Positions 19,093-31,665 are shown, counted from the stretch's first letter. The stretch is DNA of 64,000 nucleotides from Scytolyngbya sp. HA4215-MV1 (GCA_019359045.1 JAHHIA010000003.1:1-64000), one strand, 5' to 3'. Numbers and translations: made by a program. The notes: generated by a model from the letters alone, not told the origin.

Positions 19093-19178
19093 GCATCACG
19101 ATCCGCTTCACCTGCCGTTGAGATAATCTCGATCTTAACGGATCTTCCATACGGTCAGGTGCAAGCGGCTTGTTGCGC
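19093..19178 (-). other. attC-like integron recombination site 1
   Basis: Read on the minus strand: R'' GCGCAAC, spacer AA, L'' CCGCTTGCACCTGACCG, about 40 central bases, L' CGGCAGGTGAAGCGG, R' GTGATGC. L'' and L' are complementary except for an unpaired G and A in L''. That extra base in the 5' half is the orientation mark of attC sites. It begins 41 bases after the stop of the isochorismatase gene. R' departs from GTTRRRY. Confidence 0.72.
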
Positions 19179-19219
19179 TGCTGACAAAACGACACATTCT
19201 ACTGAGCTACCAACTAACA

Positions 19220-19816
19220 CTACTCATTTATCAACTTTGAAAGAATTTCCTCATACATAATCTTTTGGATTTGGTGTCCTGCGCCATTTGCCCAATCGTA
19301 GGCGAGTTCCGCCATAACCTGATTGGTCGTTGTCAGCGTCACACCGTGGTCTTTCATTCTCTGCGCCGAAGTCTCGTCTGCCACTTGCGTTGGCGATCCG
19401 CCTGCATCAATCACAACTTGCACCTCGTAGCCGTCTTCAGTTGCACTGATTGCCGGAAAGACAATGCAGACATCATTTGTCAAACCAGCCATAATTAGTT
19501 TCTTCTTGCCAGTCGCTTCCACCGCTTTTTTGAACGGCTCAAATTCCCAGCAATCAACAATGCCGGGACGTTTAACTCGTTTTTCGTATTCTTCGGGCGC
19601 GAGTTTTTGCAAATCTTCAAGCAGCAATCCTTGAAAATTCTCCTCCTCACTACTGGTTAAAACGAGCGGCATTCCGGTTTCCTTTGCTGTCCTTACCAGT
19701 GCCCTAGTGTTCTGTACGATTTGATCGTAAGCAATGTTTTTAGCAAGTTTGATTGTGCCTTGCTGATGGTCAATCAACAACATTACTGAATCCTGAACAG
19801 TAAATTTATTTTTCAT
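19220..19816 (-). CDS. isochorismatase-like cysteine hydrolase
   Basis: 198 aa, preceded by a perfect AGGAGG. The catalytic triad of the isochorismatase-like fold is visible: Asp in VMLLIDHQQG, Lys in RVKRPGIVD and Cys in GLTNDVCIVFPA. It resembles the YcaC-type subgroup, whose substrate is unknown. It is divergent from the hxlR-type gene at 19908, a common pairing in which the regulator controls the hydrolase. The gene ends directly before attC-like site 1, as expected for a cassette gene. Confidence 0.87.
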   Translation of the reverse strand: MKNKFTVQDSVMLLIDHQQGTIKLAKNIAYDQIVQNTRALVRTAKETGMPLVLTSSEEENFQGLLLEDLQKLAPEEYEKRVKRPGIVDCWEFEPFKKAVEATGKKKLIMAGLTNDVCIVFPAISATEDGYEVQVVIDAGGSPTQVADETSAQRMKDHGVTLTTTNQVMAELAYDWANGAGHQIQKIMYEEILSKLINE

Positions 19817-19872
19817 TCTCAGCCTCCTAGAATCACGTATCGATTATGTTGTAAATGCCTTCAAACAAGCAA

Positions 19873-19899
19873 GTAGGCACAAAAAAGTGCTGTACCTAC
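19873..19899. promoter_or_regulatory. candidate HxlR operator
   Basis: Between the divergent isochorismatase and hxlR genes lies GTAGG...CCTAC (arms 19873-19877 and 19895-19899), with an inner CAC...GTG dyad around an A-tract. It ends 8 bases before the hxlR start, which would suit autoregulation. It is an inference from position and symmetry only. Confidence 0.35.
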
Positions 19900-19907
19900 A
19901 AAAAAAT

Positions 19908-20282
19908 ATGCACGAATCAGAAGAACCCATTTCCAACCTGCTCGACTCTCACCCCTACCTACGGCAAACCCTAGACCTTGTTGCCGATAAATGGGTCGTG
20001 GCGGCTTTGTATATTCTCTCCCACGGTACAAAGCGCTATGGTGAGTTACAGCGAGAGATTGGTAATATTTCCCAACGAATGCTCACTCGGACTCTTCGCG
20101 ATTTAGAACGGAATGGACTGGTTGCCCGAAAAGTGTATCCCGTTGTACCACCAATGGTTGAGTACTCCTTAACCCCCTTGGGAAGAACTTTAAGCCAAGT
20201 CATGGAAAGTCTTTGTGAATGGGCAACAATCAACTTTCAAGACGTAGAGGTTGCAAGAAGTCAATATGACCTCTCAAACTAA
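19908..20282 (+). CDS. HxlR-family winged-helix regulator
   Basis: 124 aa from ATG 19908; GTG 19887 is an alternative. LVADKWVVAALYILSHGTKRYGELQREIGNISQRMLTRTLRDLERNGLV is the HxlR winged helix, with VYPVVPPMVEYSLTPLG in the wing. HxlR regulators often respond to aldehydes or thiol stress and control a divergent gene. Here that gene is the isochorismatase-like hydrolase. It is the one gene in the attC region reading on the plus strand, and its stop is 16 bases from attC-like site 2. Confidence 0.88.
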   Translation: MHESEEPISNLLDSHPYLRQTLDLVADKWVVAALYILSHGTKRYGELQREIGNISQRMLTRTLRDLERNGLVARKVYPVVPPMVEYSLTPLGRTLSQVMESLCEWATINFQDVEVARSQYDLSN

Positions 20283-20298
20283 TGCCACAATCTGTAAA

Positions 20299-20388
20299 GC
20301 ATTACAACGATCTGGCTGAGCGGCTGCAAGTAACTTTTTCAACACCACCCAGATCTCTCAACAATCCGCTCTAGTCGGGTTGTTATGC
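20299..20388 (-). other. attC-like integron recombination site 2
   Basis: Minus strand: R'' GCATAAC with AAC, then an inner arm CTAGAGCGG. The matching CCGCTCAG and GTTGTAATGC stand at the other end. The outer arms pair in 9 of 10 positions and the inner GAGCGG/CCGCTC arm is perfect. Length 90 bases. It lies 58 bases after the stop of the second isochorismatase-like gene. Less canonical than site 3. Confidence 0.6.
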
Positions 20389-20446
20389 TGCCGACGCAAC
20401 CAGATAACCTAAAATCTCCTTCTACTGCTTATGAAATTGTCCAGTC

Positions 20447-21025
20447 TTAGGGAAAGACGCTATCTCGATGATGTAAAGATTCACCAATGATTTGCAGCAA
20501 TTTTGTTCCAGGCTCTTGGGTGTAATTGTGCTGGATTTCACCTGTAAATCCTGTCCAAGTGGTGAGAATAACACCTGCCTGTACCATGCGCATCCAAGCC
20601 GCTTGTTCATTACGACTATTGAGCGTCCCAGAAACATCAATGATGGCATAGACCTGATACCCAGCCGCAACCGCTGAAATTGCAGGAAGACATAATCCGA
20701 CGTCAGTTGCGAGTCCAGCCATCGCTAAGGTTTTGCATCCTGTTTGCTCGACTGCGCGAACAAAGTCCGGGGTTTCCCAAGAATTGTTGGTTGCGTGTTT
20801 AATCTGAATGGCATCCGGTAGGAGGTCTGTTAATTCAGGCAGAACTGTACCGCGATCGCCCACAATATCTGCCGCAGCAATAATCACAGGCAGTTGAAGA
20901 ATGGTACAGACTTTAGCAAGTGCGATCGCATTCCGTTTGAATTCCTGTTGATCCATTGATTGAATTGTGCTGATTGCACCCAGTTGCATATCAATGAAGA
21001 CTAGGACTGTATCTTCAGAGTTCAT
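20447..21025 (-). CDS. isochorismatase-like protein lacking the usual catalytic cysteine position
   Basis: 192 aa with the isochorismatase fold: VFIDMQLG has the Asp and IQIKHATNNSWETPDF the Lys. The motif that normally reads TNDVC here reads LATDVGLCLPAIS, so the nucleophile position is Gly with a Cys two residues later. Activity may be lost or altered. It is a distant paralogue of the protein at 19220-19816. It follows an NTF2-like gene, a FAD monooxygenase and a MarR gene on the same strand, probably as one operon. Confidence 0.82.
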   Translation of the reverse strand: MNSEDTVLVFIDMQLGAISTIQSMDQQEFKRNAIALAKVCTILQLPVIIAAADIVGDRGTVLPELTDLLPDAIQIKHATNNSWETPDFVRAVEQTGCKTLAMAGLATDVGLCLPAISAVAAGYQVYAIIDVSGTLNSRNEQAAWMRMVQAGVILTTWTGFTGEIQHNYTQEPGTKLLQIIGESLHHRDSVFP

Positions 21026-21092
21026 AGTTTTTAGATTCTGTGTTCCTGAAATCTGCTATTTAATTGCTCGATTGTTGGCTGAATAAGGGATA

Positions 21093-21488
21093 TCAGATAT
21101 GTTGCAGTGGAGTAAGATCGATATAAATCTTATAATCCTTAACTTGGGTGCTTTCCAGTTCAAGGACGTCAACGTAGGGTATCGTGACTTGACTCCCATC
21201 TTTGCGCGTGTAGGTTACTTCGGCTTCAAAGATGACTGTTGTTTCATCCTCCCAAGCTTTAATCAGATGATGCTGTAGTCCTTGGATTGTGGAAAAGAAG
21301 GTCGTGATCATCTGGAATACGGATGCACGCCCGGTTATTAATGGATTGCTACCCAACCGAAATTGCACATCTTCTGTCAGAAGAGCAACAAAGGACTCCG
21401 CATCAAGGGCTTCATCAGCGGCGTAAATTTGTTGAATTAATGCGGATGTACGCAAACTAAGGGCTGTTTCTCGTTGGCTCATGGGCAT
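21093..21488 (-). CDS. SnoaL/NTF2-like protein
   Basis: 131 aa from ATG 21488; MSQ at 21482 is equally possible. The sequence ALIQQIYAADEALDAESFVALLTEDVQFRLGSNPLITGRASV, followed by mixed beta strands, is the cone-shaped NTF2-like fold used by polyketide cyclases, ketosteroid isomerase and small-molecule binding proteins. It sits between the FAD monooxygenase and the second isochorismatase-like gene, with gaps of 52 and 67 bases, and may act on the monooxygenase product. The substrate is unknown. Confidence 0.78.
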   Translation of the reverse strand: MPMSQRETALSLRTSALIQQIYAADEALDAESFVALLTEDVQFRLGSNPLITGRASVFQMITTFFSTIQGLQHHLIKAWEDETTVIFEAEVTYTRKDGSQVTIPYVDVLELESTQVKDYKIYIDLTPLQHI

Positions 21489-21540
21489 CTCCAGCTACTT
21501 TCAGTACTTTGTGTAGACGTTAACGTTGGTTTAGCGTTCA

Positions 21541-23217
21541 TCACTTTGCCTGGGTCATGACTGAGCTAGTGGTTAAAATCCCTGAGAGGTAATCCAGTAG
21601 GCGATCGCTATCGGCAATACCCCCACGAAAACCGATATACCAATCAGGACGAACCAGGTAAAGGCAGGCAGAAGCGACCCCATACCGTTCATGGGCAAAG
21701 TGTTCGCCATCCATCAGAATCGAGTTAGATGCAGAAAACGCTTGTGGCGGCAGCAGTTCTGGCACAACGAAGTAGGAGTGAATTAACCGACCATACGCCT
21801 GACTCACCTGTTGTTGAAGGCTCAAGAGTTTCTGATAAGTTTCAGCCGTGGCTTTTTGTCCCGCAAAGAGGAGTAATGTCCAATGCGTTCCTCGCAACAC
21901 ATCAAATAACTGGATCGTTGCTTTATCCGCCAGTCGAACAACGGTGGCATTGGGAGCGCGATCGCCTGCACCTGCACCACTACTGCCAGCATGATCCTCG
22001 ATAATTGGGCTGGTGTCTCGATAGCTAATATCCACCTCTTCCAACGTGTGCATCAACTTGGTGCGAACCACTTGCTGATTGACAATGAAAGGACCCAACA
22101 GCCGCACCGCAGTCTGCTTCAACTCATTGGGATGCAGAATGATGCGATAACTTTTGTCAGTTCCCGCTAGCAATGCTTCGGCAACTGGAACCCGCTCCGC
22201 ATTGTAACTATCCAATAGGTCAGGCGTAGCGTGGCTTTGCACCGTGTAAGCCAGTTTCCAGGCGAGATTAAAGGCATCTTGAATGCCTGTATTCATGCCT
22301 TGTCCACCCAATGGCACATGGATATGTCCCGCATCGCCTGCCAGGAAAATGCGTCCGTCTCGAAAGCGATCGGCGCGTCGATGGGACGTGCGATACCGCG
22401 CTAACCAGGTAGGATCATACAGCTCGGCATCAAGTCCACCGAGAGCATTCAGCGCATCTTGCACTTCTTGTAGAGAAGGGGCATCGTCACTTGCTCCATG
22501 TTCGTCAACGGTTGCATCCGTCGGTTGATCGGGCAGTGAGATAAACACTCGCACCTGATCGTCCGGCATCTCAATCACCATCATGTAACCTTCACGGGTC
22601 AAGAACAGATGGCTGATTCCTTTCGGTAGTGTCCAGCGAATTTTGGCATCCGCTTGAATGAATTGCTCGCCTTCGTATTTGCCGCCTTCAAAGCTGAATC
22701 CCAGTTTCTTCCGAATCATGCTATGAGCGCCATCACAAGCGATCAGATAGTGCGATCGGATGACTTCTTCAGTTCCATCAGGATGACGCACGGTGACTGA
22801 AACCTGGGTTTCATCCTGTTCAAAGCCGATCGCTTCCGTTTGCCATTCCACTCGTCCGCCTAATTGATGCAAATGCTCTTCTAAAACATGTTCGGTGCGG
22901 TCTTGTCCCAGAATGACGGGATGTGGATAAGGACTATCCGCAATTTCAGAATGCAAATGTCCGATAATCTTGCCGTAGGCGCGCAGAGAGATTTGGCGCA
23001 TGGGCACACTGACTGACTTTGCAGCAGCGATCGCACCCATGGCATCAAACACTTCTTGCGTGCGAACATGCAAGATCAGTGCCTTCGAAATGTTTTTTGT
23101 ACCCGGATCTTTATCGATAATGCGGCAAGCAATCCCATAGCGGTTTAACTCAGCAGCCAGAGTAAGACCAACGGGACCTGCACCCACTACCAAAACATTG
23201 AGCAAGTCAGAAGACAT
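21541..23217 (-). CDS. FAD-dependent aromatic monooxygenase (PheA/TfdB family)
   Basis: 558 aa. It has the N-terminal dinucleotide fold VLVVGAGPVGLTLAAEL, a DG motif (YLIACDGAHSMIRKKLG) and a second FAD motif (DGRIFLAGDAGHIHVPLGGQGMN), plus the extra C-terminal thioredoxin-like domain of phenol/resorcinol hydroxylases. The enzyme would hydroxylate an aromatic or polyketide substrate using NAD(P)H and O2. The gene follows a MarR regulator by 41 bases, with a palindrome between them, which suggests ligand-induced expression. Confidence 0.88.
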   Translation of the reverse strand: MSSDLLNVLVVGAGPVGLTLAAELNRYGIACRIIDKDPGTKNISKALILHVRTQEVFDAMGAIAAAKSVSVPMRQISLRAYGKIIGHLHSEIADSPYPHPVILGQDRTEHVLEEHLHQLGGRVEWQTEAIGFEQDETQVSVTVRHPDGTEEVIRSHYLIACDGAHSMIRKKLGFSFEGGKYEGEQFIQADAKIRWTLPKGISHLFLTREGYMMVIEMPDDQVRVFISLPDQPTDATVDEHGASDDAPSLQEVQDALNALGGLDAELYDPTWLARYRTSHRRADRFRDGRIFLAGDAGHIHVPLGGQGMNTGIQDAFNLAWKLAYTVQSHATPDLLDSYNAERVPVAEALLAGTDKSYRIILHPNELKQTAVRLLGPFIVNQQVVRTKLMHTLEEVDISYRDTSPIIEDHAGSSGAGAGDRAPNATVVRLADKATIQLFDVLRGTHWTLLLFAGQKATAETYQKLLSLQQQVSQAYGRLIHSYFVVPELLPPQAFSASNSILMDGEHFAHERYGVASACLYLVRPDWYIGFRGGIADSDRLLDYLSGILTTSSVMTQAK

Positions 23218-23232
23218 AGTGCAAGCCCTTAA

Positions 23233-23272
23233 TAGATCAAGCTTGATGCAATATTAGTTCAAACTTGATCTA
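23233..23272. promoter_or_regulatory. candidate MarR operator
   Basis: TAGATCAAG (23233-23241) and CTTGATCTA (23264-23272) form a perfect 9-bp inverted repeat with a 22-base spacer, overlapping the 3' end of the MarR gene just upstream of the monooxygenase. Inner CATCAAG/TTCAAAC halves add symmetry. Position and symmetry fit a MarR-type site controlling the monooxygenase operon. Confidence 0.5.
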
Positions 23273-23765
23273 TCTTGACTGGGTGGCTTGTAAACTTCAG
23301 GTTTTCTTCCAAATCCTGCCTTAACCGATCGACCATTTCAGACAGACTGGCTTTTTCTGCTGCAGATAAAGATTCAAACAGTTGCCGATCTAAATCCTGC
23401 GCCTGCTGGGGCAAGCTATCCTTTAACGCTTTGCCCTTAGAGGTTAGCCAAACTCGCCAGATTCGGCGATCTTTTTCATCGCACTGACGCTGGATATATC
23501 CCTGCTTCTCCATCAGGGGCAAGGCAACAGTCACATTGCCGCTCCGTTGTTGTAATTGCTTGCTAATTTGAAGCGTGGGCAATCCATTGGTTTGCCATAG
23601 GCAGCAAAGAATTCCCCACTGCAAAGGAGTCAGCCCAAATTTGTCTAAGATATCTTGGAATCGTCGCTCAATCACCAGACTGAGAAGCTTCAGCCGATAC
23701 CCTAAAGCATTCGGAGGTAGAATATCTCGATATTGAACAAAAAACTCATCATCTGGCTCGACCAA
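23259..23765 (-). CDS. MarR-family regulator
   Basis: 168 aa, apparently from TTG 23765; no in-frame ATG occurs before the conserved core. The winged helix is clear: LTPLQWGILCCLWQTNGLPTLQISKQL, QRSGNVTVALPLMEKQGYIQRQCDEKDRRIWRVWLTSKG. MarR proteins repress genes for phenolic or antibiotic metabolism until ligand binds. It is the first gene of the monooxygenase block, directly after attC-like site 3 on the minus strand. Confidence 0.85.
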   Translation of the reverse strand: MVEPDDEFFVQYRDILPPNALGYRLKLLSLVIERRFQDILDKFGLTPLQWGILCCLWQTNGLPTLQISKQLQQRSGNVTVALPLMEKQGYIQRQCDEKDRRIWRVWLTSKGKALKDSLPQQAQDLDRQLFESLSAAEKASLSEMVDRLRQDLEENLKFTSHPVKIDQV

Positions 23766-23857
23766 GAATCGTTAATCCAAACTTAGACAACTCTCAAATC
23801 TTACATGATGGTACCAGTAGATCAGCTTGAAACATGCCTTGTCCATCACTAAAAGTG

Positions 23858-23946
23858 GCCTAACGCCCCCGTTCACCCGCCGCAAGCAACCTCTCGGGCT
23901 CAATAAAGAGACTATGTACGGTCGGTGTGCAACGGGATTGTTAGAC
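23858..23946 (-). other. attC-like integron recombination site 3 (best match)
   Basis: Minus strand: R'' GTCTAAC, spacer AATC, L'' CCGTTGCACACCG, about 40 central bases, L' CGGCGGGTGAACGG, spacer GGGC, R' GTTAGGC. R'' fits RYYYAAC and R' fits GTTRRRY exactly. L'' and L' pair apart from extra bases in L''. This is the full canonical attC architecture at a canonical length of 89 bases. It starts 79 bases after the CLC gene stop. Confidence 0.82.
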
Positions 23947-24025
23947 CGTACCTCAGCGATCGCGCTTGGTTAACCTTAGATAATTTTGGAGTTTTAGGCA
24001 GCGTTATAGAATAATCCTTGCTAAA

Positions 24026-25306
24026 TCAATCCGTCTGAGACTTTATTTGAGACTTGATGAAAGGCAATTTAGGAGCAAGAAAAAACCCCACTAGACTCGC
24101 AAATAGAATCGGAGTGAGCGGCGAAAATCCAGTTAATTTGGTTAATAACAGAGTTGTGCTGATCGGTGTGCGCGTCACTGCGGCATTAAGCGCTGCCATC
24201 ACTGCGATCATTGTTAAAACAGGATGAAGCCCAGGGACCAGCAGCGCGATCGCTTTACCGATACACGCCCCGGTGAAAAAAAGTGGAATAATAAATCCGC
24301 CGCGCCATTCCCCGTTGACGGTGATTGCGATCGCACTCATCTTGGCAAACGCCAAAATCAGCAAAAATAAAGCGCCTTCACGACTCTCGACGACCCTATT
24401 AAGCTCTTCATGCCCAAAGTAGCGGGTCAGAGGAACGAAGGTGGCTAAAATTCCGAGTCCCAAACCTGCCATCGTCGTCCGAATATAAACAGGTTCAGGC
24501 AGCTTTGCAAACAGCCACGCGCCACTTTTAACCAAGCCAATAAACACCCAAGCCGCGATCGCACCGACCACACCAGACGCGATCGCCAGCGGGAAATCAT
24601 CAATGTTATTAACGTGATATTGAGGAAACGTCCAGGTCGGACTAATCCCCAAATGAGTAATGAATGCAAAAACCAGGTAGCTTGCACAACTCGACACGAT
24701 CGCAGGCAAAACCGCCTGATAATATTCGGCAACGTACTGATGATGCAGAATTTCCAGTGCAAAGAAAGCCCCACCCAACGGCGCACCAAACAATGCAGTA
24801 AAGCCCGCTGCCATGCCTGCAACACTTAGCGATCGCACATCTTCACCTTGTAGCTCTAAGAAATCGGCAACCCACGTTCCAAATGACCCTGTAACCTGAA
24901 CCATTGGAGCTTCAGGACCTAAGCTCCCACCCGACGAAATGCTGACTAAAGATGCAAGCACCATGGATGGGTTTTCGCGGGTATCAATCCGTCCTCCCCG
25001 CGAATGAATGTTATCGACGATTAAACTAATTTCACCAGGATTTCCTAGAACATGAATGATCAGTCCGATCAATAAACCCGATAGCGACATCACAATCAAT
25101 AGACTGATGCCCTGAAACGATCGCAGAAAATGGGTCAACAGTTCTAAAACATTCCAATACAAGCCAGCGAAAAGCCCACTCCCAATCCCAATCACTGCCC
25201 AGCAAACCACCCAGCGAGATAAAGTGAAAGGATTTCTAGCTGATAAATGAGAGAGCCAGCAAACCGCCCAGTTGTGTTGGTCGAAACGATGCTTTTTGGG
25301 AGCCAT
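24026..25306 (-). CDS. CLC-family chloride channel/transporter
   Basis: 426 aa with about ten hydrophobic helices. Selectivity-filter segments are recognisable: SSGGSLGPEAPMVQ stands for the usual GxGREGP, GAPLGGAFFALEI for the next helix, and GGFIIPLFFTGACIG for GxFxP. There is no C-terminal CBS domain. It would pass chloride or another anion across the cytoplasmic membrane. The gene lies between attC-like site 3 and an HPP-family gene on the same strand. A MITE-like element separates it from that gene. Confidence 0.88.
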   Translation of the reverse strand: MAPKKHRFDQHNWAVCWLSHLSARNPFTLSRWVVCWAVIGIGSGLFAGLYWNVLELLTHFLRSFQGISLLIVMSLSGLLIGLIIHVLGNPGEISLIVDNIHSRGGRIDTRENPSMVLASLVSISSGGSLGPEAPMVQVTGSFGTWVADFLELQGEDVRSLSVAGMAAGFTALFGAPLGGAFFALEILHHQYVAEYYQAVLPAIVSSCASYLVFAFITHLGISPTWTFPQYHVNNIDDFPLAIASGVVGAIAAWVFIGLVKSGAWLFAKLPEPVYIRTTMAGLGLGILATFVPLTRYFGHEELNRVVESREGALFLLILAFAKMSAIAITVNGEWRGGFIIPLFFTGACIGKAIALLVPGLHPVLTMIAVMAALNAAVTRTPISTTLLLTKLTGFSPLTPILFASLVGFFLAPKLPFIKSQIKSQTD

Positions 25307-25501
25307 TGTTCAGGATGGATTAGCGTTTATGGCAGTCTGAGCAGAATCTTAGATACAGCTAGTACAGCAAACTGAAAGTTTTGTTAGGGGTGAAGGGGTG
25401 AAATCCCTTCTTAGTGGCGAAGCCCCCAAACTCCCATGTTGCAGAATTTAGTGTTTGCAACACTAGATTCAAGCAAACTTGTTGAGAAAACAATCCGCTA
25501 G

Positions 25502-25685
25502 TACAACAAGGCGTAAGTCTATGTACCATTCCGATCCGCTCTCATCCCCCAACCCCCCTTCGACTTCGCTCAGGATACCGCTTCTCCCAAAAAGGGAGAA
25601 GGGGAGTTCCGGATTAAAGTCCCTCTCCCCAAATGGGGAGAGGGATTTAGGGTGAGGGCGGATCGGTATACGAACTTACGCTACT
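25502..25685. mobile_element. MITE-like element with terminal inverted repeats
   Basis: Ends begin GCGTAAGT on each side as inverted repeats, extend into a second matching block (CGATCCGC), and enclose the GC-rich inner palindrome CCTCTCCCC...GGGGAGAGG. A direct repeat AATCCGCTAG stands just outside each end (25492-25501 and 25686-25695) and would be the target-site duplication. It is non-coding and lies between the HPP and CLC genes. Confidence 0.65.
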
Positions 25686-25703
25686 AATCCGCTAGAGAAA
25701 TTA

Positions 25704-26261
25704 CTACAGCCAATGCTTCGGATAGGTTCTTTCTGCCGCTAAGTTATTGAAGATCACAGCACAGAATACCAAGATCATCGATCCCTCAAAGGCAGGTGTG
25801 AGCAGAAATTTCCAGTCAGGCTTCGTCATCATCACAACTAGAGCAACGGCTCCTGAAGGCGGATGCAATGTTCCGGTGATCTGCATGAGGGCGATCGCAC
25901 TTGAAACCGCAACGCCCATTGCCCAAGGAGAGGCACCCACACACTGCAGAACAACCAGACTGATCAAAGCGGCTAAGAAATTGCCTCCAATTACATTGCG
26001 AGGTTGAGCTAACGGACTGTCAGGCACACCAAAGATCAAAACGCTGGTTGCGCCAAACGGAGCCATCAGCAAGGGAGAATTTGTTTTGATTGCCAGATAC
26101 GAGGTTGCGGTAATCCCCAAAAAACTTCCAAACCAACTCCAAAAAATGTGCCGATGATGAGGTCTATCAACTGGACAGGCTAAAGGGCAGGATCTCCATC
26201 GGCCCAAGACTTTAAACCAATAACTTTCCCATTTCAGCCAAGCATTTTTCAGATTTATCAT
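25704..26261 (-). CDS. HPP-family membrane protein
   Basis: 185 aa. It carries the name-giving motif in GTLHPPSGAVALVVMM and five hydrophobic segments, for example SWFGSFLGITATSYLAI and FEGSMILVFCAVIFNNLA. In cyanobacteria some HPP proteins have been linked to nitrite transport, but many are uncharacterised. It lies in the same orientation as the CLC gene and 281 bases from attC-like site 4. Confidence 0.85.
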   Translation of the reverse strand: MINLKNAWLKWESYWFKVLGRWRSCPLACPVDRPHHRHIFWSWFGSFLGITATSYLAIKTNSPLLMAPFGATSVLIFGVPDSPLAQPRNVIGGNFLAALISLVVLQCVGASPWAMGVAVSSAIALMQITGTLHPPSGAVALVVMMTKPDWKFLLTPAFEGSMILVFCAVIFNNLAAERTYPKHWL

Positions 26262-26542
26262 GAAATCACACTTTTAGAGTTGCCTCGCCCAGACGTTGCT
26301 AAAGTCAGAGTACCATGACATTTCTAAAATGATCTAAATTCAGTATCAAGCTGTACAGACTTTTTTTACTTTAAATGGATAAAGCAGCAATGATTGGCAA
26401 AAAGCTCAGCATTCAATCTTTCAAGGGCGACGGTCAAACTGATTCAGGTAGAGTTTTCAATTATGGGCATACAGTTGATACAGCGATACCTTGCAGGTCT
26501 CTCAATGCGATCATTTATCTAATATCGACTCGAAACGCACAG

Positions 26543-26629
26543 GCTAAGGCCCGGCATCAGCCGCCGCGCATGGACTGCGGAGAATAAAATCAACACTCCC
26601 TCGAGATCGGCTGCATGCCGTTGTTAGGG
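26543..26629 (-). other. attC-like integron recombination site 4
   Basis: Minus strand: R'' CCCTAAC, spacer AA, L'' CGGCATGCAGCCG, central part, L' CGGCTGATGCCG, then R' CTTAGCC. L'' and L' are perfectly complementary over 12 bases with a single extrahelical G in L'', as in textbook attC sites. R' has C for the first G. It begins 32 bases after the stop of the PH-like gene. Confidence 0.78.
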
Positions 26630-26661
26630 GAGCATACGTAGTTCAACTCTCATCGCCATCT

Positions 26662-27141
26662 TTACTGCTCTCGATAGGGGATGTCCGTAACCTTACTAAG
26701 CAACCTGCCTAGCTCGCCGTGATCGAGATACCCTTTAGCTGGGCTGTTTAATAGAAATTTGCCCTTGTTCCCATACATGTACAAATATTGCTTCCTCGTC
26801 CCCCTATCATCCCTCTTCATTTCCAGCTCGATACCTTGAATGTCACTCAAATCTATCACCTGCTTCTTGTTTCTAAAGACGCCGCTGACTCTTCTCATCA
26901 GAACCTTTGTAGTTGGATCGATCTGAATCCGTTCTCGTGTGGCGACGAATTCCAAGAAGATCCAGAGGATGAAGAGACCAAAGAACAAACAGAAAAATTT
27001 GCCATCAGCCTCAGTCCCGCTGAAGAGATGAAACAAAGAGTAGGCTAATGGAGGAAGGCTAAAGAGCGCGGCGACAAAAAACAACAAAAGAGGCACTTGC
27101 CTAATAACAATGTGTGATCCATGACGGCTTACTAAATTCAT
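26662..27141 (-). CDS. PH-domain-like membrane protein, hypothetical
   Basis: 159 aa. Two hydrophobic helices near the N-terminus (VPLLLFFVAALFSLPPLAYSLF and FFCLFFGLFILWIFLEFVA) are followed by a beta-rich part (TKVLMRRVSGVFRNKKQVIDLSDIQGIELEMK) reminiscent of bacterial PH-like (bPH) domains. The function is unknown. It stands alone between attC-like sites 4 and 5, with 32 bases from its stop to site 4 and 30 from site 5 to its start, which is the layout of a single-gene integron cassette. Confidence 0.75.
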   Translation of the reverse strand: MNLVSRHGSHIVIRQVPLLLFFVAALFSLPPLAYSLFHLFSGTEADGKFFCLFFGLFILWIFLEFVATRERIQIDPTTKVLMRRVSGVFRNKKQVIDLSDIQGIELEMKRDDRGTRKQYLYMYGNKGKFLLNSPAKGYLDHGELGRLLSKVTDIPYREQ

Positions 27142-27171
27142 ACTTGAAAAGATGTAGACGATTTAATCAGA

Positions 27172-27259
27172 ACATAACAATTGAGATGAGTCGCCGTAGA
27201 TAACCTCTGATTCTTACAGACAACCTCTCGGCGATCGGTGTGCATTGGGGGTGTTATGT
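27172..27259 (-). other. attC-like integron recombination site 5
   Basis: Minus strand: outer arms ACATAAC and GTTATGT are perfect reverse complements. Inner TCGCCG/CGGCGA arms also pair, with partial CAAT/ATTG matches between them. Length 88 bases. It lies 32 bases after the GNAT gene stop. The middle of the stem is less regular than in sites 3 and 4. Confidence 0.62.
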
Positions 27260-27291
27260 GCCGATCTCTCACCAGTCGCTGCTTCTGGAGC

Positions 27292-27825
27292 TTACTTGCT
27301 CACTGCATAGCAATAACAGTCTCGCGGCTCTTTAGACATATTTGGGTGAATGATCCACCGCTTTAATATCCCTTCTCGCTGCATTCCCACCTTCTCCATG
27401 ACCCGTGCTGATGCAGGATTTTCGAGATCACAAACAGCCCAGACCCGATAAATCTCATCTTGTTCTAGTGCCCAGCCTGTCAATACTTGGACGGCTTCTG
27501 GCACATATCCTTTACCCCATTCTGATTTTGCAAGGACATATCCTAAATCTGCTTTAAAGTTATTGAAGCGAATCTCTACCATACCGATGAGTTGAGCATC
27601 TTCCTTACGAATCAGGACATAAGGAAATGCAGAAGCATCAACCCACACCGAGATACATCGGCTGACCCATTTATGTGTTTCTTCAATTGATTGATGAGGT
27701 TGCCAAACTGTATATTTAGCTACTTCTGGATCTTGCGCGTACTGTTTGAAGATTAATGCTGCATCTTCAGCAACTGGTTGCCTTAAAGATAATCGCTTAG
27801 TTTCTAGAGTTTGTGGTAGTTTCAT
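27292..27825 (-). CDS. GNAT N-acetyltransferase, RimJ/RimL-like
   Basis: 177 aa. TKRLSLRQPVAEDAALIFKQYAQDPEVAKY at the start and LGYVLAKSEWGKGYVPEAVQVLTGWALEQ in the acetyl-CoA-binding region, then RVWAVCDLENPASARVMEKVGMQREGILKRW, are the RimJ/RimL pattern. It would acetylate an amine of a protein or small molecule. Its ATG follows the R' end of attC-like site 6 by one base, and its stop is 32 bases before site 5. It is thus a second single-gene cassette. Confidence 0.87.
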   Translation of the reverse strand: MKLPQTLETKRLSLRQPVAEDAALIFKQYAQDPEVAKYTVWQPHQSIEETHKWVSRCISVWVDASAFPYVLIRKEDAQLIGMVEIRFNNFKADLGYVLAKSEWGKGYVPEAVQVLTGWALEQDEIYRVWAVCDLENPASARVMEKVGMQREGILKRWIIHPNMSKEPRDCYCYAVSK

Positions 27826-27826
27826 G

Positions 27827-27957
27827 GCGTAATCCCAATTTCCAGACTCAACTCACAGTGTACTAAGCTCTCTTTGCAATCAACCTCAAAACACTACCAC
27901 ATAGCAATTCATGCTAACTTGGCCTCGAACACCAACAAATTAGATTTGGGTTACGCC
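27827..27957 (-). other. attC-like integron recombination site 6 (degenerate)
   Basis: Minus strand ends are GGCGTAAC and ATTACGCC, complementary except for one base, followed by CCAAAT and the matching ATTGGG. At 131 bases it is long but within the range of attC sites. Evidence is weaker than for the others, but its position, touching the GNAT start codon, is exactly where the preceding cassette's attC should be. Confidence 0.5.
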
Positions 27958-28000
27958 CCCACCAAGAACTAAGCGGCATAACTGTTAATAGGCTAATTTT

Positions 28001-28129
28001 TTCCGCCTAACATTCCAAGATGGGCAGATAGGCAGAATGATTCTGCATAAGATTCCAAATTATTACTTATGCCGATTACTTCCGCATAATATGCCGTTTA
28101 AGCCGATTAGCCAGAATCTTTCCGCCTAT
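28001..28129. repeat. iteron-like array, TTCYGCMTAW every ~40 bp
   Basis: TTCCGCCTAA (28001), TTCTGCATAA (28041), TTCCGCATAA (28080) and TTCCGCCTAT (28120) recur at intervals of 40, 39 and 40 bases. The first two share a longer ATTCCAA extension, and inverted forms (CTTATGCC, CGGCATAA) stand between or before them. The stretch is non-coding. Such spaced short repeats are usual for recombinase or replication-initiator binding. The actual binding protein is unknown. Confidence 0.6.
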
Positions 28130-28229: not shown

Positions 28230-28376
28230 AGGATATCTGAAAAGTGTAGATTCTTACGCTAGATCCCCCCTAGCCCCCCTTAATAAAGGGGGAAACAGAA
28301 CCAAAGTCCCCCTTACCAAGGGGGATTTAGGATCAGAGATTGGCAACGTAGCCGAAAACTACTTTTCAGACAACCT
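28230..28376. mobile_element. MITE, 147 bp with 5-bp target duplication
   Basis: Terminal inverted repeats read AGGATATCTGAAAAGT at the left and, in reverse complement, AGGTTGTCTGAAAAGT at the right. CTGAG stands directly outside both ends (28225-28229 and 28377-28381) as a target-site duplication. The inside holds the paired blocks CCCCCTTAATAAAGGGGG and CCCCCTTACCAAGGGGG. It is non-coding and abuts an IS481 relic. A decayed relative lies near 47140-47273. Confidence 0.78.
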
Positions 28377-28686
28377 CTGAGAATGGTGTCAGACCTGTCT
28401 TATTTATTGCTCTCTCTTCTACGTGTTTCTCACGGTCTTCTTTGCTCTCCATCGGACCTTCAAACTGTTGATCCAGTATTTTCTCCTTGACCAAGTGTTT
28501 GCTGTCAAAAAACGTCTGCATCGGCGTCTTGCCATAACAAGAGCGTCTAGAGTGTGGACGGGTGCAATGGTAAGAATCCATTCAATCATCCATATCATGC
28601 TGCAACTGCTCCACGCTGCTGTACCGCTTTTTGCGGAACGCCACCTGGTAAAACTCTTCCAATATCGTCCGGTGAAACCGCTCAAG
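28366..28686 (-). pseudogene. IS481-family transposase, 3' fragment with nonsense codon
   Basis: The minus strand from 28686 gives LERFHRTILEEFYQVAFRKK, then RYSSVEQLQHDMDD, a stop (TGA where TGG is expected) and in the same frame MDSYHCTRPHSRRSCYGKTP followed by MQTFFDSKHLVKEK. This is the C-terminal end of a DDE integrase-fold IS481 transposase. The N-terminal two thirds are missing, and the right boundary coincides with the start of a duplicated block at 28682. The reading frame ends inside the MITE terminal repeat. Confidence 0.8.
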
Positions 28687-28861
28687 TAAGTGATCGCTCC
28701 TGCTTCACAGTTTCTTCCTAGCGATCTCGCTGTTATCGGGCATACGTTTTGTGTCCAAGTTAAGCAATTCAACCATTTCACTCATCAAAACAATCATCGT
28801 CTTGCTAGAACCAGCCTAAATTGCCCAAATACAAGAGGCTACAATGTCCATGCAATATCCA
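28682..28861. repeat. ~175-bp duplicated block, copy 1
   Basis: This block matches 31489-31665 closely over its whole length, including GATCGCTCCTGCTTCACAG, CATACGTTTTGTGTCCAAGTT and AATTCAACCATTTCACTC. The second copy directly follows the stop of a reductase gene. This one runs from the IS481 fragment into the first codons of a broken NTF2-like gene. It probably carries a shared promoter region. Confidence 0.75.
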
Positions 28862-30814: not shown

Positions 30815-31495
30815 ATGAAAATTGGCATTATTGGCAGTGGCAATATGGGACGATCGCTCGGCATTCTCTGGGCAGAACGGGGCCATGAAGTGTTTTTTGG
30901 TGCCCGTACTACAGAAAAAGGTCAGGAGGTTGCTGCAAACGCAGGTCACAAGACTCAGGGCGGTTCCAATGACGCAGCCGCAGCGTTTGGAACAGTGTTG
31001 CTGTACACGGTGCGCGGGGTGAATCCGGCTAAAGTGTTTTCGGCAGTCAGCGTTCTGGATAACAAAGTTCTGATTGATTGTAACAACCAGGAAATTCCAG
31101 AGAACTTTGCATATCCAGCAATTACACAGTCTCTGACTGAGACACTCGCTGCCGAAGTGCCCAAGGCACGGGTCGTTAAAGCTTTCAACACGATGGCACA
31201 GGAATTGTTTGAACTGGCTCCAGACCCACTCAAAAGTTATAACGTCTCAGTGTTTATTGCTAGTGATGATGCATCGGCGAAACAAACGGTGATGCAGCTT
31301 GCGAATGAGATTGGCTTTCAGGCGATCGACTGTGGCGAATTGCGACACGCCCGGTTAATCGAGGGTGCCGGAGATTTAATCCGCTTGTTGATGATTCAGC
31401 AACAGATGGGATCAACTGCAACAATCTCTATCCATACCTTGCCACCTGCTCAAACGCAACGTCTCGGAGGGCGACAAGACTCAAATCTTAAGTGA
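30815..31495 (+). CDS. NADP oxidoreductase, F420-dependent-type (copy 2)
   Basis: 226 aa from ATG 30815, with AAGGAG upstream. Rossmann start MKIGIIGSGNMGRSLGILW and later VPKARVVKAFNTMAQELFE. The C-terminal part from LLMIQQQMGS onwards has been copied into the chimeric ORF at 35411-35599. Probably an NADP-dependent reductase of a small carbonyl or quinone substrate. The duplicated block at 31489 begins at its stop codon. Confidence 0.85.
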   Translation: MKIGIIGSGNMGRSLGILWAERGHEVFFGARTTEKGQEVAANAGHKTQGGSNDAAAAFGTVLLYTVRGVNPAKVFSAVSVLDNKVLIDCNNQEIPENFAYPAITQSLTETLAAEVPKARVVKAFNTMAQELFELAPDPLKSYNVSVFIASDDASAKQTVMQLANEIGFQAIDCGELRHARLIEGAGDLIRLLMIQQQMGSTATISIHTLPPAQTQRLGGRQDSNLK

Positions 31496-31665
31496 GCGAT
31501 CGCTCCTGCTTCACAGTTTCTTCCTAGCGATCGTGCTGTCACCGCGCATACGTTTTGTGTCCAAGTTAATTAATTCAACCATTTCACTCCTCAAATCAAT
31601 CATCGTCCTGCTAGAACCAATCTAGACTACCCAAATAGCGGCGGCTGCAATATCCATACAATACT
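31489..31665. repeat. ~175-bp duplicated block, copy 2
   Basis: Close match to 28682-28861, beginning at the stop codon of the upstream reductase. In this copy the ATG that starts the NTF2-like pseudogene in copy 1 reads ATA, and no gene follows directly. The remaining 130 bases to 31793 hold nothing recognisable. Confidence 0.75.

Follow-up and report, generated by a model that had tools for sequence, protein, structure and literature searches.

The window analysed here, a 64-kb stretch of DNA from Scytolyngbya sp. HA4215-MV1, lies in a 606-kb contig (C5) of the 6.6-Mb home genome (G000; 33 contigs) and contains an array of five cassettes with ten genes, numbered here from the attI-like element at its head outward, 1 to 5. 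Cassette 1 (27178-27981, minus strand) carries the gene for a GNAT acetyltransferase (27292-27825; Pfam family Acetyltransf_3) and an attC. It is followed by cassette 2 (26548-27177, minus strand), which is bounded by attC sites and, in addition to its own attC, contains the gene for a hypothetical protein (26662-27141) that belongs to no Pfam family. Cassette 3 (23864-26547, minus strand; 2.7 kb) encodes a ClC chloride channel (24026-25306; Voltage_CLC) and an HPP membrane protein (25704-26261; TM_HPP), again with an attC. Cassette 4 (20308-23863, minus strand; 3.6 kb) is a four-gene operon with an attC at the end, assigned through Pfam, that encodes an isochorismatase (20447-21025), a SnoaL-like protein (21093-21488), an FAD monooxygenase (21541-23217) and a MarR regulator (23259-23765). 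Cassette 5 (19099-20307, minus strand), also annotated through Pfam, combines a second isochorismatase gene (19220-19816, minus strand) with a divergent gene for an HxlR regulator (19887-20282, plus strand) and an attC. The two isochorismatases are only 29% identical, so they do not stem from a recent duplication. Between the ClC and HPP genes, there are two interspersed repeats (25359-25466 and 25577-25659) that have dozens of copies in genomes of the family and are not attC sites. The possibility that the GNAT cassette is a copy of a cassette on contig C7 of the home genome was considered and rejected: the first 29-47 bases are common to both but the encoded proteins are unrelated, that is, the leader alone is shared.

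The attC sites

The attC sites were searched for with a covariance model (R1) that was derived from seven attC-like sites of contigs C10 and C25 of the home genome and excluded every site in the window; the E-values for the window sites were calculated over 184 kb. Such a search had been named as the check on the original prediction of six attC-like sites in a common orientation. R1 matches five of the six, all on the minus strand, with E-values from 4e-10 to 0.24, so that five sites and their shared orientation stand and the sixth falls. From cassette 1 outward, the matches are 27172-27259 (30.5 bits, E 2e-5; R'' ACATAAC and R' GTTATGT), 26542-26629 (15.9 bits, E 0.24; degenerate, with R' CTTAGCC in place of GTTAGCC), 23858-23946 (37.1 bits, E 3e-7; consensus ends GTCTAAC and GTTAGGC, as had been claimed for this site), 20302-20388 (47.3 bits, E 4e-10; R'' GCATAAC and R' GTTGTAA) and 19093-19178, the last attC of the array (22.7 bits, E 0.003; degenerate, with R' GTGATGC). 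All five conform to the attC plan, in which outer RYYYAAC and GTTRRRY boxes enclose paired L''/L' arms on the folded strand, and those at 19093, 23858 and 26542 display the predicted extrahelical base, a single unpaired G in the 5' arm of the gene strand. The sites are spaced by 1.1, 3.5, 2.6 and 0.5 kb along the array, and the gaps that separate them from the ends of the preceding genes, given before as 32-79 bases, are 33-80 by our recount. The GTT core is retained in three of the sites and lost in two (19093 and 26542), which points to decay.

The rejected candidate is an inverted repeat inside cassette 1 (27827-27957), for which R1 yields at most 2.3 bits with filters switched off. One of its arms falls within the leader of the acetyltransferase gene; a related genome shares this leader but not the repeat, the right arm of which is not conserved there.

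Several controls bear on the specificity of R1. Among 80 IntI loci in named genomes, all 55 attC matches are on the strand opposite to intI and 54 of the 55 lie upstream of it, which validates the orientation given by the model, as integrons require. In the home genome, a same-strand gene directly precedes 37 of 42 attC matches, mostly at a distance of less than 90 bp. Among 43 matches, in an alignment that had itself been fitted to the attC structure, none of 500 shuffles equalled the observed base-pair covariation score or percentage paired, and covariation was also far above that of slid controls. Scans of the window with Rfam and tRNA models found nothing besides one tRNA.

The explanation of the sites as chance or REP-like intergenic inverted repeats gains some ground from the abundance of palindromes in cyanobacterial genomes, and the repeat at 27827-27957 is precisely such a false positive. 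We nevertheless consider it extremely improbable, given that the out-of-sample R1 scores exclude it for at least four of the five sites and that 108 of 146 genomes of the phylum yield no R1 match at the same threshold (E 0.01). The orientation opposite to intI, the adjacency to genes, the covariation and a cassette boundary in a related genome (G388, see below) likewise argue against it. Three of the attC sites (20302, 23858 and 27172) recur in many genomes of the family as isolated pieces of about 65-105 bp without their flanks; in the case of 23858-23946, these are 85-90 bp that recur alone, the flanking DNA being absent.

The attI-like element and the integron integrase

In integrons, a circular cassette is inserted at attI by the integrase IntI through its folded attC; newcomers come to lie beside attI and older cassettes shift outward. 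The structure of the window array agrees with this scheme throughout. The element that heads the window array (about 27976-28125, minus strand) is the predicted primary site of cassette insertion, with the crossover G^TT placed between 27982 and 27981. A sequence profile (R2) of five other attI sites, from which the window element was excluded, matches 27979-28061 (43.8 bits, E 1.2e-12), and a further module is located upstream (28071-28125). In 51 of 52 loci of other genomes, the best R2 match is located upstream of intI at a distance of no more than 450 bp, so that the element at 27979-28125 is best read as a cyanobacterial attI at the head of the array. In an alignment, the attI sites resolve into three inverted-repeat modules (TTAGGCGGAA...TTCnGCCTAT) separated by spacers; the GTTA crossover lies in the last one, and the resulting cyanobacterial consensus has the terminus CTATTAATAGTTA. 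Individual attI-like elements terminate in CTATnAAnAGTTA or close variants (CTATAAAGTAGTTA in those adjoining intI) and the sequences diverge right after it. In the window, the end of the element coincides with the G^TT crossover and the start of cassette 1.

The home genome has one intact intI but no fewer than six attI-like elements, all of which head co-oriented attC sites. The window attI shares 71-77% identity with its counterparts at C5:160.7k, C15 and C27; the intergenic regions next to the intact intI (C25) and a truncated intI (C10) show a more distant resemblance to it. The attI sites of C25 and C10 are 95% identical to each other, with the matching ending near the GTTAGCC insertion point, whereas the window attI is only about 55-59% like that of C25. 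It is, however, 75% identical to the intI-linked attI of strain CCP2, and this type occurs next to intI in other strains as well. In the vicinity of the window attI, there is a short frame that resembles a transposase remnant (28366-28781) and a segment (28681-28860) that is repeated at 31487-31663 with 86% identity; these could possibly be traces of an event that removed intI.

A tblastn search of the window with the C25 IntI as the query detected neither intI nor a remnant of it. The earlier statement that no integrase gene is visible thus holds for the window but not for the genome as a whole: C25 encodes an intact IntI (C25:2345-3286; 488 bits against a cut-off of 265), a member of TIGR02249, and codons 69-128 of another intI are left on C10 (C10:62648). 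The genome-wide search for IntI found only these two; the remaining matches, to other tyrosine recombinases, were weak and partial. The C25 IntI aligns over its full length with the solved Vibrio integron integrase 2A3V (E 1e-95) and, as read from the alignment, has the catalytic residues R142, K166, H273, R276, H299 and Y308; the extra region characteristic of IntI is present as well. Compared to a complete integron, the window array has the attI at its head and lacks the adjoining intI.

Altogether, the home genome has about 40 attC matches spread over some 18 loci. The C25 locus (C25:1-3300) consists of the intact intI, attI and one cassette for a hypothetical protein at the contig end, and a PycTM-like gene (Pycsar effector) is located beyond the attC. 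On C10 (C10:51385-62850), about 7-8 attC sites lie behind the attI next to the truncated intI, in cassettes that include Fic/Doc, PIN-domain and HNH genes.

Cassette boundaries and spread among related genomes

Comparison with related genomes bears directly on the cassette edges; gain and loss boundaries falling away from the sites had been named as the observation that would speak against the array. Genome G388 (contig C42) has the ClC/HPP cassette, 86-89% identical to its counterpart over much of the block, with an attI-like element (16.5 bits) immediately preceding it. The similarity starts exactly at G^TTAGCC, window position 26547, which is the crossover (26548/26547) predicted for the weakest attC; this boundary at its very junction rescues the site at 26542-26629, for which R1 gives an E-value of only 0.24. 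The match to a GNAT homolog in G416 ends at 27262, three bases off the attC edge at 27259, and that to an isochorismatase/HxlR homolog in G430 (contig C236) ends at 19172, inside the R'' box of the attC. Thus, the informative edges all fall at the sites or within a few bases of them and, in view of the R1 matches, neither of the two observations named beforehand as refuting the array was made; the remaining homologs align only within genes and carry no information on cassette edges. In another contig of G430 (C321), parts of the gene order of cassette 4 are present and no attC was detected there. A search for an empty site around the flanking NurA gene in relatives found none, and synteny in this region is not conserved. 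The attC behind the isochorismatase/HxlR homolog in G430 (C236:11337-11424, L264) points the opposite way, as would be expected had the divergent pair been turned into a cassette in reverse.

Integron components are common in this group of cyanobacteria. Of the 42 genomes of the family (the order comprises the same 42), 28 encode an IntI above the curated cut-off and all have attC matches; in a sample drawn from the whole phylum, such an IntI is encoded in 22 of 386 genomes. The nearest named genomes that carry IntI are those of Myxacorys, Leptolyngbya, Nodosilinea and similar filamentous cyanobacteria. Sites resembling attI are more numerous than integrases: four genomes (G395, G427, G388 and G429) have 8 to 13 attI-like matches each, a few of them duplicates from the two strands of a single site, whereas none of the four has a match to IntI at E 1e-60. 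Among 21 attI sites from 20 regions of related genomes that were picked for the presence of attI without a known intI, 18 are followed by attC sites within 5 kb, always in the same orientation; intI remnants are present in only two of the 20 regions, and two of the attI sites are at contig ends, with intI possibly off the contig. In one genome (G426:C38, L312), two attI-headed arrays of cassettes, neither with intI, converge on each other across 4.3 kb. At three loci (L192, L228 and L232), an IntI 67-71% identical to the cyanobacterial one is encoded in metagenome-assembled genomes labelled Gracilibacteria, Ktedonobacter and Poribacteria, which reflects either transfer or mis-binned contigs.

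Origin and status of the array

The attC sites, their shared orientation, the attI-like element, the lack of intI in the window and, in the informative comparisons, cassette edges at or near the predicted sites are established, and we are highly confident that the locus is an integron that was built by IntI, with attI followed by five cassettes that each end in an attC, and is now devoid of the neighboring intI. The tyrosine recombinase IntI would have inserted the cassettes one by one at attI, with the attC sites folding as single strands; judging from the order, the GNAT cassette, beside attI, would be the newest, and the isochorismatase/HxlR cassette, at the far end, the oldest. The intI gene that normally adjoins attI was probably lost from this spot, and the cassettes would now be fixed unless the C25 IntI, or an IntI entering from outside, acts in trans. 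By the published definition of a CALIN, namely, at least two attC sites less than 4 kb apart with no neighboring IntI (IntegronFinder, PMC9024848), the original classification of the array as a candidate CALIN is appropriate; it requires amendment with respect to the one wrong site, the retained attI and the intact IntI elsewhere in the genome.

With regard to the present status of the array, we favor, with odds somewhat better than even, a dead relic: an array immobilized by the loss of intI that now decays like any other genes of the chromosome. This preference is based on the limited similarity of the window attI to the attI of the intact intI and on the lack of the GTT core in two of the five attC sites. 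The absence of an intI remnant from the window and the transposase-like debris adjoining attI fit this reading, as does the proposal that CALINs are degraded integrons (PMC9024848); the intact cores of attI and three attC sites, and the presence of an intact IntI in the cell, do not. The latter features are better accommodated by a secondary platform that is still live and is served in trans by the C25 IntI, one integrase acting on several scattered attI sites. The existence of at least six attI-like elements with co-oriented attC sites and one intact intI is in line with this possibility, as is the conservation of the core sequence in orphan attI sites despite the loss of intI; in related genomes, co-oriented attC sites follow 18 of 21 such attI sites. 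We regard it as a serious but less probable alternative because the attI differs in type, so that the matching integrase may be absent from the genome, two attC sites are degenerate and there is no direct sign of recent movement.

The window array shares with CALINs (PMC9024848) attC sites less than 4 kb apart on the same strand, a gene before each of them and no IntI nearby, and differs in keeping an attI-like site; its cassettes reach 3.6 kb and include a four-gene operon. One CALIN that possesses an attI has been described, in the Shewanella prophage M16-3 (PMC9892861); there, as here, a complete integron and an integrase-less array, each headed by attI, coexist in one genome. In the Shewanella case, however, both attI sites are of one type, whereas the window attI differs in type from that of the intact intI, and several such arrays are present. 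The sedentary chromosomal integrons of Vibrio and Xanthomonas (PMC12444791) are also similar in that the attC sites within a genome resemble each other and attI, IntI and CALINs off the main locus are present, but these integrons form one large array, in contrast to the many short, dispersed arrays, most without an integrase, described here. Reports of integrons in cyanobacteria date back to 2008 or earlier (PMC2426708) and an attC covariance model for Cyanobacteria exists (PMC8352920), so that the expectation that such an array would be notable for its phylum is not borne out. The array has the phylum and the integrase family in common with these reports which, in the parts available to us, describe neither a cyanobacterial attI nor integrase-less attI platforms. 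Our literature search for integrons in Leptolyngbya found no paper.

In itself, the window array is of an ordinary type, although its host has received little study. What has been less described so far is the recurrence, in this cyanobacterial family, of integrase-less platforms with their own attI. The attI detection of IntegronFinder is confined to class 1 integrons (PMC9024848), which may explain why attI-headed CALINs went uncounted. The value of the present analysis lies in a cyanobacterial attI consensus that goes beyond this class 1 detection and in the evidence that integrase-less, attI-headed arrays are common in one family, which makes the choice between CALINs as relics and as members of a trans-acting network a testable question. 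More tentatively, the whole family might possess a distributed integron, in which one or a few integrases serve, in trans, many small attI-headed arrays across the chromosome, and in which attI platforms persist beyond the integrase or disseminate independently of it; at present, we are inclined to doubt this scenario.

Finally, the cassettes could have been inserted one at a time into attG sites, which are non-classical chromosomal targets, by an IntI acting in trans, in which case there never was an integron at this location. Insertion of this kind has been demonstrated experimentally (Loot 2024, as cited in PMC12444791 and PMC12901181), and several single attC sites without a detectable attI exist elsewhere in the genome; the window array, in contrast, starts directly at a specific attI-like element, which makes this explanation very improbable here. 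Additional attC arrays and single attC sites on contigs C7, C14, C18, C20, C23, C31 and C32, for which no attI was detected, are candidates for attG insertions. On C32, an attC follows the gene for a 969-aa type I restriction protein HsdR, suggesting that very large genes may ride as cassettes.
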